From Novosphingopyxis iocasae (GTDB lineage: Bacteria > Pseudomonadota > Alphaproteobacteria > Sphingomonadales > Sphingomonadaceae): DNA of 64,000 nucleotides. The translations under genes were made by a program, and so were the position numbers. The notes below the pieces were generated by a model. That model was not told where the DNA came from. It saw only the letters and a program-made list of their open reading frames with translations, and searched no databases. The stretch spans positions 147,001-211,000 of the forward strand of contig NZ_CP060495.1 in NCBI RefSeq assembly GCF_014334095.1. The letters run 5' to 3'. This document shows positions 1,450-62,160 of this stretch, piece after piece. The first letter of the stretch is position 1; the number at the start of each line of letters is the position of its first letter.

Positions 1450-1552
1450 TCGTCATTGCGAGGAGCGCAGCGACGAAGCAATCCAGAGCCGTTGCAGCGC
1501 TGCGATTGCTCTGGATCGCCGCGTCGCCCTTCGGGCTCGTCGCGATGACATA
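1450..1552. repeat. Palindromic intergenic repeat, family A copy 1
   Basis: Starts with CGTCATTGCGAGGAGCG, continues through AAGCAATCCAGAG, and ends with a diverged inverse of the same sequence (CTCTGGATCGCCGCGTCG to GATGACA). Further copies lie at 20852, 37199 and 45350. The copy begins 22 nt behind the acyl-CoA dehydrogenase stop. It can fold as a long hairpin on either strand. Repeats of this type are frequent in Sphingomonadales. Confidence 0.85.
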
Positions 1553-1571
1553 ACCCAATAGGAGAGACCCA

Positions 1572-2369
1572 ATGGACACACCGAAACTATTCTCGCTCGA
1601 AGGCCGTACGGCGCTCGTCACCGGCGGATCGCGCGGCATCGGTCGCATGATCGTGGAAGGCCTGCTCGGCGCGGGCTGCGCAAAAGTCTATATCAGCGCG
1701 CGCAAGGCCGATCAGCTTGCCGAGGCGTCGGAAGCGCTGGGCGACAAGGTGGTCGCCATTCAGGGCGACGTTAGCACCGTCGATGGCTGTCGCGCGCTCG
1801 CCAAAGAGTTGTCGGAGCGTGAGGACAAGCTCGACATTCTGGTGAACAATGCCGGGGCCGCCTGGGGTGCGCCGTTCGAGGAGTTCCCGGAAGAGGGCTG
1901 GGACAAGGCGATGGACGTGAACGTGAAGGGCCCGTTCTACCTCACACAGGCGCTTTACGGGCTACTGAAAGCAGCAGGGTCCGCGGACCAGCCGGCCAAG
2001 GTCATCAACATCGGATCGATCGACGGGCGCAAGCTGAACCCATGGGAAACCTACAGCTATCATGCTTCCAAGGCGGCGATCCTGCATCTGACCAAGCGCA
2101 TGGCCGCGCGTCTGATCCGCGACGATATTGTGGTGACGGCGATCGCCCCCGGCGCCTTCCAGTCGGACATGAACAAGGCCGCGCGAGATCATGGCGATGC
2201 GGTGGCCAAGAACATTCCGTCCAAACGCATCGGATCGGCTGAGGATATGGCGGGTGCCGCGGTGTTCCTGGCGAGCCGGGCGGGCGATTATGTTGTCGGG
2301 TCCACCCTTACCGTGGACGGCGGCATCGTTGACGCGGGGCTTCCGGGTAACAGCATCGACGCGGGTTGA
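1572..2369 (+). CDS. SDR family NAD(P)-dependent oxidoreductase
   Basis: A 265-residue classical short-chain dehydrogenase/reductase. The Rossmann motif TGGSRGIGR sits at about residues 17-25, NNAG at about 92-95, and the catalytic Tyr-x3-Lys is in YSYHASKAA (about 160-168). The C-terminal half carries IAPGAFQSDMN, usual in carbonyl reductases. The ATG at 1572 is preceded by a good GGAGAG ribosome binding site 8 nt upstream. Following two acyl-CoA dehydrogenases, a 3-hydroxyacyl or 3-ketoacyl oxidoreductase role is plausible, but the substrate is not determinable. A family A repeat separates it from the upstream gene. Confidence 0.92.
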   Translation: MDTPKLFSLEGRTALVTGGSRGIGRMIVEGLLGAGCAKVYISARKADQLAEASEALGDKVVAIQGDVSTVDGCRALAKELSEREDKLDILVNNAGAAWGAPFEEFPEEGWDKAMDVNVKGPFYLTQALYGLLKAAGSADQPAKVINIGSIDGRKLNPWETYSYHASKAAILHLTKRMAARLIRDDIVVTAIAPGAFQSDMNKAARDHGDAVAKNIPSKRIGSAEDMAGAAVFLASRAGDYVVGSTLTVDGGIVDAGLPGNSIDAG

Positions 2370-2390
2370 ACGACAAAGCGGGGCGGGCAC

Positions 2391-2416
2391 GGAACGGCTT
2401 CGCCCCGCCTTCCGTT
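2391..2416 (+). promoter_or_regulatory. EcfG-type (general stress response) promoter
   Basis: GGAAC (2391-2395), 17-nt spacer, CGTT (2413-2416). This matches the alphaproteobacterial EcfG consensus GGAAC-N16/17-CGTT controlled by PhyR-NepR. The predicted transcript start is about 20 nt before the ATG at 2443. A second hit of this type lies at 41286. Confidence 0.55.
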
Positions 2417-2442
2417 GTCGGATGGAAGAAAGGAATTCCATC

Positions 2443-2694
2443 ATGGCAGACGAAGATCCGAACATGACCGAGGAGCTGGAAGGCTTCGACGAAACACAGC
2501 GGGCCGAAATTCTTGAGACCGAGGGGCGCAATCCCAAGCGCGGCGCGATCGTCGATGATCTCACGCCCGATCGGGGGCAGTCGATCACAGAGGGCGAAGC
2601 GCGCGAGGAAGAACTTCACGCAATCGCCGACACGCCCGACCAGCGTATTGTGGATGCGCTTGACGACGAAAACGCTGGGGAGGGCCGGTCATGA
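2443..2694 (+). CDS. Small acidic hypothetical protein
   Basis: An 83-residue, strongly acidic protein with no signal peptide or membrane segment; I do not recognise a family. The longer open frame upstream overlaps the SDR gene, so the ATG at 2443 is preferred: it has an AAGAAAGGAA purine stretch upstream and lies about 20 nt behind the predicted EcfG-type start site. The C-terminal half is rich in Glu and Asp with an IVDDLTPDRGQ segment. Its stop overlaps the start of the next ORF (ATGA), so the two are translationally coupled. A stress-induced cytoplasmic role is inferred only from the promoter. Confidence 0.7.
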   Translation: MADEDPNMTEELEGFDETQRAEILETEGRNPKRGAIVDDLTPDRGQSITEGEAREEELHAIADTPDQRIVDALDDENAGEGRS

Positions 2695-2894
2695 GCGGCG
2701 GCGGCTACGGCAATCACGACAAGGACGGCAAGCCGTCTGCACCCGAAGGCCCGGTTCACAGCGACAAGCCGAACAAGCCACAGGGCAATGACGGAGCGAG
2801 CGACACACAGTCGCAAACCAGCCCGGATGCCTACCCCGACAGCGACGGTGGAAAGCCCGATTATGGCAGCCCGAACCGCAAGAAGGACGATTGA
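2691..2894 (+). CDS. Small hydrophilic hypothetical protein
   Basis: A 67-residue low-complexity protein dominated by Gly, Asp, Lys, Pro and Ser, with repeated KP/DG elements and a basic-acidic tail NRKKDD. It has no hydrophobic core and is probably intrinsically disordered. Start and stop are set by a 4-nt ATGA overlap with the preceding gene, which supports it as a real second cistron of the EcfG-like operon. Disordered small proteins of this composition are often stress proteins, but that is inference; no family is recognised. Confidence 0.65.
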   Translation: MSGGGYGNHDKDGKPSAPEGPVHSDKPNKPQGNDGASDTQSQTSPDAYPDSDGGKPDYGSPNRKKDD

Positions 2895-2943
2895 TTGCAT
2901 CGACAGCTTGCAGTTTTGGCAAGCAATGATCGCATGACTGCAA

Positions 2944-2971
2944 TTGTATTTGTTGCGTGACGGCGTAATTA
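2944..2971 (+). promoter_or_regulatory. Sigma-70-like promoter for small RNA candidate
   Basis: TTGTAT (2944-2949), 16-nt spacer, TAATTA (2966-2971). The expected start is near 2978, giving a transcript of about 120 nt that ends at the terminator hairpin near 3098. Confidence 0.4.
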
Positions 2972-2977
2972 AGCTTC

Positions 2978-3100
2978 AACGCCGGCCACGGTGCTGGCGA
3001 TCCTTCGTGCGGGGGCTTTCCTCTCCTCCTCCCCCCGTTCCCGCCGAAGTGATTAGGAGACGGTCCCTGAGCTTGCCGCTCGGGGGCCGTTTCTTTTTGA
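2978..3100 (+). ncRNA. Candidate CCUCCUCCC-loop small RNA (cuckoo/CcsR-like)
   Basis: The gap between the tiny ORFs and the OsmC gene holds two adjacent stem-loops. The first (3003-3049) pairs CTTCG(T)GCGGG with CCCGCCGAAG and exposes a pyrimidine loop containing CCTCCTCCC, complementary to Shine-Dalgarno sequences. The second (3057-3092) is a G+C-rich hairpin followed by TTTCTTTTT, a Rho-independent terminator. A sigma-70-like promoter lies at 2944. Two hairpins with an anti-SD loop are the hallmark of the alphaproteobacterial CCUCCUCCC (cuckoo, CcsR) RNAs. Those often lie near DUF1127 genes, and none is seen here. Exact ends are estimates. Confidence 0.5.
3056..3098 (+). terminator. Rho-independent terminator of the small RNA
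   Basis: Stem GGTCCCTGAGC / GCTCGGGGGCC around loop TTGCC, followed by GTTTCTTTTT. It would end transcripts coming from the left, including the candidate small RNA. Confidence 0.7.
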
Positions 3101-3165
3101 GGCCGCTGCCGATGGACTGCTGCCATCCAGGTGGGATGCGGGGCACTGCAGCGTCGGATCTCGAC

Positions 3166-3206
3166 GCAAAAAAAGGCGCGCCGTTACAGCGCGCCTTTGT
3201 TTTTTA
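3166..3206. terminator. Bidirectional Rho-independent terminator
   Basis: Perfect stem AAAAGGCGCGC / GCGCGCCTTTG with loop CGTTACA, flanked by an A-run on the left and a T-run on the right, so it can work in both directions. On the minus strand it lies just behind the OsmC gene stop. Confidence 0.85.
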
Positions 3207-3219
3207 CGTTCTGCCGGGT

Positions 3220-3666
3220 TCAGCCGACGGCGAATTCGCTGTTCAGCGTATGCTCCAGAGTGATTTCGCAATCGAGCAGCTTGGACAGCGGGCAATTTTC
3301 CTTTGCGCCTTTCGCGATTTTCGCGAATTCCTCTTCCTCGATATTGGCGATCTGAGCCGTCAGCGTCAGTTCGGACTTGGAGACCTTGAAGCCATCGCCG
3401 TCCTTTTCCAACGTAACGACCGATTTGGTATCAAGCACGCCGTCCTCATAGCCCGCATCGTTGAGTGCGAAAGAAAGGGCCATGGTGAAGCAGCTGGCAT
3501 GCGCACCGGCAATCAGCTCTTCGGGATTGGTGCCCGGAGCATCTTCGAAACGGGTGTTGAAACCATAGGGTTGATTTTCAAGCGCGCCGGACTGGGTGGA
3601 CACGTGGCCCTTGCCGTCCTTGCCGAGACCTTCGTAACGGGCGGTGCCCCAATTGGTAGTTGCCAT
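3220..3666 (-). CDS. OsmC family peroxiredoxin
   Basis: A 148-residue OsmC/Ohr-type thiol peroxidase that reduces organic and inorganic hydroperoxides. The two catalytic cysteines are at residues 59 (AHASCFTMA) and 125 (KENCPLSK), the same numbering as E. coli OsmC. The start at 3666 (MATTNWG) is chosen over the ATG at 3687 because AAAGGAAC lies 9-10 nt upstream of it. Transcription runs into the bidirectional terminator at 3166-3206. It faces two small ORFs with an EcfG-like promoter, consistent with a stress-response neighbourhood, although no EcfG motif is seen upstream of this gene itself. Confidence 0.92.
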   Translation of the reverse strand: MATTNWGTARYEGLGKDGKGHVSTQSGALENQPYGFNTRFEDAPGTNPEELIAGAHASCFTMALSFALNDAGYEDGVLDTKSVVTLEKDGDGFKVSKSELTLTAQIANIEEEEFAKIAKGAKENCPLSKLLDCEITLEHTLNSEFAVG

Positions 3667-3922
3667 GATGAATGTTCCTTTTTGCAAAATTGCGGAAATG
3701 TAGCAGTTCGCAAAAGGGCCAGTTCAGCCGTAGCTGAACCAGGCAATGAGCAGAGCCAAGGCCGAAGGTGGAGCGCTCAGCGTCAGAAAGCGGGTGGTCA
3801 TCCGGCCTATCGTCATCGCGCCCATCCTGTCCTAGCGAAATGCAGGGTTCGGATGGCAAACCGATGATGGGGCGAAGCGGTTCCGCGCGTTTGTCGAACC
3901 GTGGTCGATCGTGACGGGCGCG

Positions 3923-4561
3923 CTACAGTCCGTCGGAGGGGCGGGCGCTTTCGCGATTCGGCGCAGCGGATGCGGCGTTGCTAGACGGCGAATTCTTGCG
4001 CGCTGCGATATCCATGATGCGCCGCTCGGTCTCGGCAACGGGGTCCGGCTGCGTTCTCACCGGTTCAGGCTCCGAAGGCGTCTCAGCATAGCGAGGCCGC
4101 TCGGTACGGATATAGCCGGGCAGCAGGTTTTTTGGGCCGTCGGCATTCTCGCCAGTTGTCGCAGGCTTGGGTTTCGGTTTCGCTTTCGCCCGTGCGGGTG
4201 GATCGATGAAGGCGTAATCATCCAGATCCCCACCCGCGGACTCGCCGTAATAATCGTCGATCGATTCAAACCGGATGCGATGATCCGGCCGGGCGGCTTC
4301 ATAGGGTTCGATCTTGCGCGCGCCGCTCACCGTAGGGTTGGCGATACGCTTTTCGCCGGGCTGATAAGGGGCATAGCGCGTGTCGACCGCATAATCTTCC
4401 TGCCGATAGACATCACGGCCCAGGGCATAGCGTTCGGTCGCCGTCCGATCGTCTCGGTAGCTGCGCGAGGCGAATGGACCTCCCAGAAGCTCGGCACCGA
4501 GCAGCCCTGCCAACATGGCGAAGACCAGAAGGCCGCTGATAATGGCGATACGCTTGGCCAT
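3923..4561 (-). CDS. Hypothetical protein with N-terminal membrane anchor
   Basis: A 212-residue protein with an N-terminal hydrophobic helix (about residues 5-27) and a long hydrophilic, charged remainder rich in Arg, Pro, Tyr and Glu, including a KAKPKPKP run near residue 130. No catalytic motif is visible. The topology suggests a single-pass inner-membrane protein with a disordered periplasmic part, or an uncleaved secreted protein. It lies 70 nt downstream of nrdR on the same strand, with a 9-bp perfect inverted repeat in between. I do not recognise the family. Confidence 0.7.
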   Translation of the reverse strand: MAKRIAIISGLLVFAMLAGLLGAELLGGPFASRSYRDDRTATERYALGRDVYRQEDYAVDTRYAPYQPGEKRIANPTVSGARKIEPYEAARPDHRIRFESIDDYYGESAGGDLDDYAFIDPPARAKAKPKPKPATTGENADGPKNLLPGYIRTERPRYAETPSEPEPVRTQPDPVAETERRIMDIAARKNSPSSNAASAAPNRESARPSDGL

Positions 4562-4574
4562 GACGCCCTAAGTC

Positions 4575-4597
4575 TATCCGTTATAGCTTAACGGATA
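4575..4597. promoter_or_regulatory. Perfect 9-bp palindrome between nrdR and the downstream ORF
   Basis: TATCCGTTA, 5-nt spacer, TAACGGATA. No T-run follows on either strand, so it looks more like an operator than a terminator. It lies 14 nt upstream of the minus-strand ORF start at 4561. Confidence 0.4.
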
Positions 4598-4631
4598 AAG
4601 ACCTGCGCGACCGAAGGGTTTCCAGCGCCGA

Positions 4632-5093
4632 TCAAGCCTTGACGATATCCTTCACAGTGCCGGCAAATTCCTCGAAATCGCGCGCTTCGGTGAAATCCTT
4701 GTAGACCGAGGCGAAGCGAATATAGGCCACACTGTCGAGCTGGCGCAGCCCATCCATCACCATCTGGCCGATCTTCTGCGAGGCGACTTCGCTATCCCCG
4801 CTGGTTTCCAGCTGGCGCTGAATTCCGGAGACGAGCTGATCGATCCGCTCCTGCGCCACGCTGCGTTTGCGGCAGGCGAGGGCGATCGATTTTTCCAGCT
4901 TGGACCGGTCGAAGCTTTCGCGCCGCCCTTCGCTCTTTACGATGGTGACTTCGCGCAGGTGAATGCGTTCGAACGTGGTGAAGCGCGCGCCGCAGCTCTC
5001 GCACTGCCGCCGCCGCCGGATCGCCGCCCCATCCTCGCTGGGGCGGCTGTCCTTCACCTGGCTGTTGTCATGGGCGCAGAACGGGCAGCGCAT
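4632..5093 (-). CDS. nrdR: Transcriptional repressor NrdR
   Basis: A 153-residue NrdR, the zinc-ribbon/ATP-cone repressor of ribonucleotide reductase genes that senses ATP/dATP. The zinc ribbon has Cys pairs at residues 3/6 (CPFC) and 31/34 (CESC) followed by RFTTFER. The ATP-cone follows from about residue 48 with [15 protein letters not shown] and ends with [12 protein letters not shown]. Length and order match the family. It follows glyA closely on the same strand (43-nt gap), the glyA-nrdR order seen in many proteobacteria. Confidence 0.97.
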
Positions 5094-10874: not shown

Positions 10875-10882
10875 CTCGCACG

Positions 10883-10969
10883 GGAGTCGGGCGGACGTGG
10901 CATTCGCCAACCCGGTCAGGTCCTGACGGAAGCAGCCGTAACGATATTCGCTGCGGGTCGTCCGGCTCC
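10883..10969 (+). ncRNA. ffs: Signal recognition particle RNA (4.5S type)
   Basis: The diagnostic SRP apical sequence GGTCAGGTCCTGACGGAAGC is followed by AGCC at 10916-10939. The ends pair: GGAGTCGG at the 5' side with CCGGCTCC at the 3' side, and GCGGACG/CGTCC internally, giving the single long hairpin of bacterial small SRP RNA (about 87-90 nt). A T-run (CATTTTTCTG) follows within 20 nt. It precedes dnaX, a usual place for ffs in alphaproteobacteria. The RNA binds Ffh and targets ribosomes to FtsY and the translocon. Confidence 0.95.
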
Positions 10970-11072
10970 TACTTTCCGCATTTTTCTGATCGATGGCTGC
11001 GCCATTCTGCTGCGAGCGCAATAGCGCACTCGCCATTCGACAGCGCTGGCGCACCTCCCTACATTGGCCCCG

Positions 11073-33989: not shown

Positions 33990-34066
33990 TGGCGCGCCCT
34001 GCAGGATTCGAACCTGCGGCCTCAAGATTAGAAGTCTCGTGCTCTATCCAACTGAGCTAAGGGCGC
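33990..34066 (-). tRNA. tRNA-Arg (anticodon TCT)
   Basis: Minus-strand cloverleaf: acceptor GCGCCCT/AGGGCGC, D-arm GCTCAGTTGGATAGAGC, anticodon stem CGAGA/TCTTG with loop CTTCTAA (anticodon TCT), T-arm GCAGGTTCGAATCCTGC, discriminator G and an encoded CCA. All four arms pair. It reads AGA and possibly AGG codons. Confidence 0.97.
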
Positions 34067-51089: not shown

Positions 51090-51251
51090 ATGAATTGCCA
51101 GAACTGCAAATTCTTCCAGACCAGCCAGAGCGAATGCCGCCGCTATGCCCCGTCGCCCGAGGGTGACAAGAAGGCGCATTGGCCGACCGTTTCGTCCGAC
51201 GATTGGTGCGGCGAGTTCGTGAAGAGCGAAGGCGAGCGTAAGGCCGCCTGA
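51090..51251 (+). CDS. 53-residue four-cysteine mini-protein
   Basis: A short ORF beginning MNCQNCKFFQ, with an ideal AAGGAG ribosome binding site 8 nt upstream and a strong terminator behind it. Four Cys at residues 3, 6, 16 and 40 (CxxC, SECRRY, DWCGEF) suggest a metal site, zinc or Fe-S. The combination CxxC...CRRY.P...DWCGEF recurs in small uncharacterised proteobacterial proteins, and the spacing also recalls small subunits of some glycyl-radical enzymes, though none is encoded here. Lys/Glu-rich tail. Function unknown. Confidence 0.8.
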   Translation: MNCQNCKFFQTSQSECRRYAPSPEGDKKAHWPTVSSDDWCGEFVKSEGERKAA

Positions 51252-62086: not shown

Positions 62087-62160
62087 GCGGGCGTGATGTA
62101 GTGGTAGCCTGTCAGCTTCCCATGCTGATCGTGCGGGTTCGATTCCCGCCGCCCGCTCCA
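62087..62160 (+). tRNA. tRNA-Gly (anticodon CCC)
   Basis: Acceptor GCGGGCG/CGCCCGC, anticodon stem TCAGC/GCTGA with loop TTCCCAT (anticodon CCC), T-arm GCGGG/CCCGC with loop TTCGATT, discriminator T and encoded CCA. The D-arm is short, as in tRNA-Gly. It reads GGG codons. Confidence 0.97.

Follow-up and report, generated by a model that had tools for sequence, protein, structure and literature searches.

Introduction

The locus considered here raises the question of whether the DNA between a small open reading frame (ORF67) and the convergent osmC gene of Novosphingopyxis iocasae encodes a small RNA of its own, exposing an anti-Shine-Dalgarno (aSD) sequence in a loop, or whether it is better understood as part of something else. 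The window, i.e., the whole stretch of 64,000 nucleotides that was analysed, is part of a 3.19-Mb one-contig genome, and the genes around the locus follow the order acyl-CoA dehydrogenase, SDR dehydrogenase, ORF83, ORF67, the RNA, convergent osmC, ORF212, nrdR and glyA (Table 1). Neither ORF83 nor ORF67 has a Pfam or NCBIfam match, and the OsmC protein of N. baekryungensis DSM 16222 is the best relative (86%) of the OsmC encoded here among the matches listed. A bidirectional terminator (AAAGGCGCGC...GCGCGCCTTT, window 3172-3198) stands between the RNA and osmC; elsewhere the window holds a small SRP RNA of the bacterial type (10880-10975) and tRNA genes at 33993-34066 and 62087-62157.

An initial annotation of this DNA had proposed a small RNA with an aSD loop, preceded by a sigma-70-like promoter and ended by a terminator hairpin. 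Its observation is confirmed, and its interpretation as a whole is partly supported. Judged from sequence comparison and modelled folds, the element is likely a real, conserved aSD-loop RNA gene that lies outside every Rfam family at cut-off, and we consider it rather probable that 2978-3100 (+) is the gene of a trans-acting small RNA of ~123 nt working by the mechanism proposed below.

Table 1. Positions within the window of the RNA, its predicted hairpins, the upstream elements and the neighbouring genes.
Feature	Position	Strand	Basis
Predicted small RNA, about 123 nt	2978-3100	+	Fold z -6.1; covariance-model orthologs in N. baekryungensis and G107; pair covariation
Hairpin 1 (5' hairpin, without aSD motif)	2980-2999	+	Two-sided changes in 6/7 pairs, three orthologs
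Hairpin 2 (core 3003-3049, pyrimidine loop 3017-3036, CCTCCTCCC at 3025-3033)	3000-3053	+	Two-sided changes in 5/16 pairs
Hairpin 3, intrinsic terminator (stem 3055-3095 and U tail)	3055-3100	+	Two-sided changes in 4/18 pairs
Inverted repeat TTGC-N7-GCAA, candidate LysR-type regulator box (T-N11-A)	2908-2922	+	In all three orthologs
GCAATTG (2940-2946), candidate -35 TTGTAT (2944-2949) and -10 TAATTA (2966-2971)	2940-2971	+	GCAATTG identical in three orthologs
EcfG-type promoter GGAAC-N17-CGTT before the small-ORF operon	2391-2416	+	Pattern match; same place in N. baekryungensis
Small acidic ORF (ORF83), 83 aa	2443-2694	+	72% identical ORF in N. baekryungensis; 20/298 family genomes, own included
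Small polar ORF (ORF67), 67 aa	2691-2894	+	73% identical ORF in N. baekryungensis
OsmC-family peroxiredoxin gene, convergent neighbour	3220-3666	-	PF02566, 1.5e-17; TIGR03562, 6.2e-54

Predicted Fold and Exposed Loop

On the plus strand, 2978-3100 folds with a minimum free energy of -66.7 kcal/mol, against -46.0 kcal/mol (sd 3.4) for shuffled sequences, and none of 200 shuffles folds as well. The stem-loop at 3003-3049 that the initial annotation had described, with CCTCCTCCC in its loop, is recovered in this fold: CCUCCUCCC lies unpaired within hairpin 2, at 3025-3033, and the CCUCC and CUCCUC words of CCTCCTCCC at these positions are unpaired with a probability of 0.999-1.0. The predicted loops of hairpins 1 and 3 are free of the aSD motif. 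The terminator announced behind the stem-loop is likewise visible, the region 3050-3100 reaching -32.6 kcal/mol (z -8.4 against shuffles), but the RNA has three hairpins and not two. A program scan of 2300-3750 does not report the terminator at 3055-3095 that is seen in the fold, probably because its T run is absorbed by G-U pairs.

By itself, the motif occurs 17 times in the genome, versus 31 occurrences of the reversed pattern, so that the motif alone carries no meaning. A search was also made for the combination of a loop containing CCTCCYCC, closed by a stem of 8 or more pairs, with a terminator behind it. In the 64-kb window, with both strands considered, this combination is found once, as a pair of overlapping sites. 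The 664,575 bp of 80 OsmC loci from other genomes likewise contain a single such element, again as two sites that overlap, and this element is the N. baekryungensis ortholog. Since the reversed-sequence control also yields 1 site, the count of this combination is not above chance; its location is.

Orthologs and Pair Covariation

N. baekryungensis keeps the same gene order, with a three-hairpin RNA between ORF67 and osmC (fold z -3.5; locus L016), and a covariance model for which the window sequence was the only input detects this copy at 55.7 bits (E 2.2e-8). The two tiny stress-type ORFs that had been noted ahead of the RNA are also kept there (72-73% identity), and an EcfG-type promoter can now be added to them. 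Sliding identity between the two Novosphingopyxis sequences is 0.72-0.75 in 3021-3100 versus 0.28-0.48 in 2881-2960 and 3101-3180; it takes values of 0.42-0.68 in 2941-3020, which comprises hairpin 1 and the 5' arm of hairpin 2 (the alignment is not structure-aware), and of 0.52-0.55 in 3161-3220.

A model built from both Novosphingopyxis sequences (R2), run under strict filters on 298 family genomes, gives 25 matches in 24 genomes, two of them being the Novosphingopyxis pair. The best match outside the genus lies in a genome of another genus (G107, locus L242), with 42.2 bits and an E-value of 9.4e-6 per genome, or ~0.003 over the 298 genomes, E-values of these covariance models being rough. 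This copy, likewise predicted to form three hairpins (fold z -4.2), follows the ortholog of the SDR gene of the window (68% identity) at a distance of 99 nt and, as the R2 search used no position, the synteny represents an independent confirmation. Relatives of ORF83, ORF67 and osmC were not found in the 17 kb around the G107 copy, whose convergent neighbour is a GGDEF/EAL protein; the presence of the RNA without the two small ORFs indicates that it is a unit of its own. Among the 23 R2 matches outside the genus, 13 were inspected (L242-L254): 11 are without CCTCC and look like bare terminators, and the remaining two are the syntenic G107 ortholog and L253, which has CCTCC. Under the strict filters, three orthologs are recognised in the 298 genomes. 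A further model, R3, was run on 83 loci and gives 15 matches up to E 1, three of which are the members; six other folded R3 matches (including L099, 35.3 bits) are not convincing as relatives, and L096 (31.5 bits with R3) is a separate aSD RNA. The covariance models also match the opposite strand weakly, at window 3050-3197 (20-23 bits, E 0.005-0.03).

A DNA search of 98 relatives with 2940-3110 matches three genomes, own included, but its negatives count for little, since it missed the N. baekryungensis copy. The hits in L010 and L011 were discarded; they span 37 and 28 bases of what, by eye, appears to be coding sequence. A plasmid search (211 bases, distant) gave no match, and a contig search of genomes for ORF67, which is insensitive since it also missed the N. 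baekryungensis copy, returned nothing. Synteny based on ORF83 gives matches in 20 of the 298 family genomes, two of which are the Novosphingopyxis pair; inspected by eye over 1.5 kb downstream, the other 18 lack an aSD hairpin with terminator, and three of them have an unpaired CCTCC outside any such hairpin. In two different sphingomonads (L017, L018), ~400 nt of noncoding sequence separate the ORF83 homolog from osmC (about 4405-4950); this stretch is well conserved by eye and contains short inverted repeats, and in L017 it has no Rfam match at gathering score.

In the alignment of the three sequences, which was fitted to the structure and thus favours it, 94.0% of cells are paired and two-sided changes affect 15 of 41 pairs, most of them contributed by one divergent sequence; values as high are reached in 0 of 500 shuffles, and slid versions of the structure show two-sided changes in 1-5 pairs. 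With two sequences only, 3 of the 41 pairs change on both sides, shuffles reach the pair counts in 62 of 500 cases, and the slid versions are beaten. Covariation of the aSD stem in relatives had been named as a test in the initial annotation, and it is found: together with hairpin 1 and the terminator, the aSD-bearing hairpin 2 also covaries (Table 1). The pyrimidine-rich loops of the three copies read CUUUCCUCUCCUCCUCCCCCC, CUUUCCUCCUCCUCCUCUCCC and CUCUCUCCUCUCUCUCCUC. CUCCUC is unpaired in all three orthologs (probability 0.989 or more), G107 keeping CUCCUC and not CCUCC. The computed duplexes between the loop and an SD string of 10 nt reach -15.8, -15.3 and -12.5 kcal/mol in the three orthologs, and those with a 12-nt SD string -12.1, -10.9 and -9.9 kcal/mol, self-structure being ignored in both cases and the best duplex of G107 with the longer string lying outside the loop.

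The Upstream Module

A module with a candidate LysR-type box upstream of the RNA, common to the three copies, is what is new here. It reads TTGC-N7-GCAA-N17-GCAATTG, with a spacing of exactly 17 nt, and 31-32 nt separate its end from the RNA. Within 1.14 Mb of loci the full module is confined to these three copies; the repeat TTGC-N7-GCAA alone is matched 31 times in the 664,575 bp taken from other loci and once more in the window, at 51095. The upstream mRNA could alternatively end in a hairpin formed by this repeat, but the fixed 17-nt spacing argues for a DNA site rather than an mRNA hairpin. If transcription is assumed to start at 2978, the box is placed at -70 to -56. For NfeR1 of Sinorhizobium meliloti, an LsrB box TGCA-N6-GCAT has been reported at -72 to -57/-60 (PMC10746234); with this motif relaxed to admit the window's last base, the window and G107 read TGCA-N6-GCAA, and N. 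baekryungensis TGCG-N6-GCAA. The likeness of the module to the NfeR1 box, in place and in sequence, may be taken as a lead, T-N11-A being a loose pattern. A published LsrB/VtlR site, given as GCAT-N3-TG-N3-T (PMC8844928, PMC7486931), also occurs at window 2932-2944 and is absent from the two orthologs. Eight window ORFs of about LysR size were tested, and none is a LysR protein.

The sigma-70-like promoter of the initial annotation is a weak one. Its best candidate hexamers, TTGTAT (2944) and TAATTA (2966), 16 nt apart, were picked by eye from the sequence, and no sigma-70 site reaches the threshold in a scan of 2300-3750.

A Possible General Stress Link and a Second aSD RNA

The EcfG-type site lies 26 nt before the start codon of ORF83 and about 560 nt from the RNA; GGAAC-N16/17-CGTT is absent directly before the RNA, the site of this locus being the one before ORF83. 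Its sequence comes close to the EcfG consensus, which has been described as GGAAC-N16-CGTT in Sphingopyxis (PMC7083833) and as GGAAC-N17-20-GTT in Sphingomonas melonis (PMC6599016). NepR is present in the genome (5.9e-10), and the EcfG-type pattern is not enriched genome-wide (41 sites versus 60 reversed).

A second RNA with aSD loops follows immediately on another EcfG-type site, located at 300775-300800 (-) of the genome. This second RNA (G000:C1 300676-300795 (-), loci L012 and L185) is the clearer aSD RNA, with CUCCCUCCCCCCC in a hairpin loop and CUCCUCCC in the terminator loop. It precedes an entericidin-family ORF (PF08085, 2.6e-5) with the SD GGAGGA, on which it might act in cis, and the arrangement is kept in N. 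baekryungensis (L100). At the other 40 EcfG-type sites, CCTCC is found within 200 nt in 8 cases; all 8 were folded, and the motif lies in the loop of a stable hairpin only in the second RNA. Behind EcfG-type sites at L186 and L195 (G000:C1 366482-366882 and 684262-684662), two ORFs have a leader whose CCTCC is able to pair with the Shine-Dalgarno sequence of the same ORF, a cis mask being possible. A family-wide rule by which aSD loops follow EcfG sites was rejected: 16 matches occur in 15 of 298 genomes, versus 28 in the reversed control (6 forward and 22 reverse). Among 30 loci from a scan with the ar14 model, the pairing of an EcfG site with an aSD motif is seen only in the two Novosphingopyxis genomes. 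As there is no enrichment across the 298 genomes, the EcfG-aSD link is a genus feature at most.

Proposed Mechanism and Targets

In the mechanism we propose, a weak sigma-70-like promoter would initiate transcription close to 2978 and would depend on a LysR-type (LsrB/VtlR-like) activator occupying about -70 to -56. General-stress transcription from the EcfG promoter at 2391 may also read through into the RNA in the Novosphingopyxis lineage. The exposed loop would then pair with AGGAG(G) at the translation starts of mRNAs and lower their translation, in the way reported for NfeR1 and AbcR in rhizobia. In the own genome, 36 distinct GGAGGAGG sites, drawn from the first 30 of 148 and 8 of 17, were considered: a start codon that opens at least 60 codons follows within 12 nt at 6 of the 36, several of these frames being doubtful, and no confident target is among them. 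What weighs against reading 2978-3100 as an RNA gene is that the promoter hexamers fall below the scan threshold, that CCUCC is lost in G107 and that obvious targets are few.

Alternative Explanations

A regulator derived from a 3' UTR would need no promoter of its own, being cut from the EcfG-driven ORF83-ORF67 mRNA or, in G107, from the SDR mRNA. We regard this origin as unlikely, albeit worth taking seriously: the EcfG-type promoter stands before ORF83 in both Novosphingopyxis genomes, a stop codon precedes the RNA by 83, 87 and 99 nt in the three genomes, and a precedent is provided by the CcsR RNAs, reported to be cut from the ccaF1 transcript (PMC10253847). The scan also shows no terminator between ORF67 and the RNA, although it is insensitive, having missed the RNA's own terminator too. 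What separates this explanation from an RNA gene with its own promoter is the upstream side. The preceding gene varies (ORF67 twice, the SDR gene in G107) while the distance of the module TTGC-N7-GCAA-N17-GCAATTG remains constant, and this constancy despite a different upstream gene fits a promoter. That the element does something else altogether, either because its G-rich bottom strand is functional or because it is part of a reading frame, is barely credible. Overlapping ORFs of 56, 80 and 145 codons do exist on the minus strand, as does one of 307 codons on the plus strand (TTG start at 2944), but the minus strand of 2980-3100 folds at the level of shuffles (z -0.29) and the U run of the terminator is on the plus strand; the 307-codon frame continues antisense to osmC, and the one- and two-base gaps between the Novosphingopyxis sequences break any shared frame.

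The nature of an independent RNA can itself be disputed from two sides. It would be very improbable that the locus is a mere strong terminator between convergent genes with a chance hairpin before it, even though the terminator is very strong, most weak model matches inspected elsewhere are bare terminators, and hairpin 2 taken alone is modest and unexceptional (z -2.1 for 2985-3052 and -3.1 for 3003-3049 in the window; -1.4 in each ortholog). Such a hairpin would hardly be expected to share covariation with hairpin 1, nor the three genomes to keep a pyrimidine-rich loop with unpaired CUCCUC and a conserved upstream module. From the other side, the RNA might genuinely belong to the ar14/cuckoo family, two of its hairpins having lost the motif, which we hold to be improbable. 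The ar14 model (Rfam RF02344) does align end to end and on the right strand with the RNA of the window and with its N. baekryungensis ortholog, the three-hairpin layout is the same, and the upstream box is LsrB-like. The scores, at 14.1 bits (E 2.2) and 15.7 bits (E 0.84), are nevertheless far under the gathering cut-off of 58.8 bits, so that the covariance search suggested in the initial annotation did not bring the RNA into the family; G107 has no match up to E 10, the motif is found in one of three hairpins, and three other places of the own genome, one of them the clearer aSD RNA, outscore the RNA with this model. The reading as a separate aSD-loop RNA gene is the one retained in what follows.

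Relationship to Known Small RNAs

At the RNA, Rfam gives no match at gathering score, and matches to ctRNA_pGA1 (24.7 bits) and to leaders were dismissed as resting on terminators or lying below cut-off. When the ar14 model was run on 149 family genomes under strict filters (up to 21 candidates per genome), 54 had a match with E up to 1 and none was above cut-off. CCTCC is contained in 23 of the 30 ar14-scan loci inspected, several times in hairpin loops by eye, but these loci are different RNAs in different places and were not accepted as orthologs. Several aSD-loop RNAs with terminators and a different layout are seen in other genera (L098, L101 and L121; L103; L108 and L117; L123); in L108 and L117, which come from the same genus, GCAT-N3-TG-N3-T stands 61 and 92 nt ahead of the sequence matched by the model. 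In L096 (G104, 1495-1605 (-)), a phasin gene (PF09361, 4.4e-22) is followed immediately after its stop codon by an aSD hairpin with terminator, which indicates that such hairpins are also found within 3' UTRs in this family.

The aSD small RNAs of the papers cited here come from rhizobia, Agrobacterium, Brucella and Rhodobacter. A search of open-licence papers by title and the start of the abstract found none on aSD RNAs in sphingomonads, where regulation by small RNAs as such has been described with SuhB of Sphingopyxis (PMC6563040). We tentatively suggest, while holding it doubtful, that the Rhizobiales circuit of a LysR-type (LsrB/VtlR-like) activator and an aSD small RNA also exists in sphingomonads, with a differently built RNA that has one aSD hairpin. 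In Novosphingopyxis, this RNA would lie behind a general-stress operon and be accompanied by a second aSD RNA behind an EcfG promoter, giving two stress inputs to global translational silencing. If this is true, a conserved single-loop aSD RNA with a LysR-type box would be a simple one-site version of the mechanism, and would allow a direct test of whether the LysR-aSD circuit predates the Rhizobiales.

The initial annotation had likened the architecture to that of cuckoo/CcsR RNAs, a comparison that is not supported. It had also seen no DUF1127 gene nearby; this is borne out, as DUF1127 (PF06568) has no match in the whole genome, E. coli being the one that matched among 14 control genomes, and the locus is therefore not of the CcsR type. 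CcsR1-4 are aSD-type RNAs. Those of the CIN1 locus in Rhodobacter resemble the present RNA in lying behind a small stress gene and in having a terminator at the end (PMC10253847). The present locus differs from them in having no DUF1127 gene, a single copy of the RNA and an upstream promoter that is EcfG-type rather than RpoH-type. AbcR1 and AbcR2 are ar15 RNAs. They are small RNAs of the aSD type activated by a LysR-type regulator (VtlR/LsrB), as is proposed for the candidate described here, and the site GCAT-N3-TG-N3-T is shared with the window, although it is not kept in the two orthologs and no LysR gene is among the eight size-suited window ORFs. GsrN of Caulobacter shares a C-rich loop and a connection to the EcfG/sigmaT general stress response (PMC5869019). 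It is, however, placed directly under sigmaT (PMC6237742), whereas here the EcfG site precedes the upstream ORFs, and GsrN has been described as raising KatG expression.

The closest comparison is with the ar14 RNAs and NfeR1. In the published description, ar14 has three hairpins, each with an unpaired CCUCCUCCC (PMC10746234), and members of the cuckoo family carry a conserved motif in the loops of 2-4 adjacent hairpins (PMC4504443), against the single aSD hairpin found here. With the motif in one of three hairpins and the ar14 score below cut-off, the RNA is not a cuckoo/ar14 RNA by definition, and one ortholog has CUCCUC only. It nonetheless shares with ar14/NfeR1 the three hairpins, the length of about 123 nt, the unpaired CCUCCUCCC, the terminator and a conserved box, here a candidate LysR-type one, some 60-70 nt upstream of the start, that of NfeR1 being bound by LsrB (PMC10746234). 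Set against these systems, its sequence points to a regulator that is probably of a known general kind, in a variant form.
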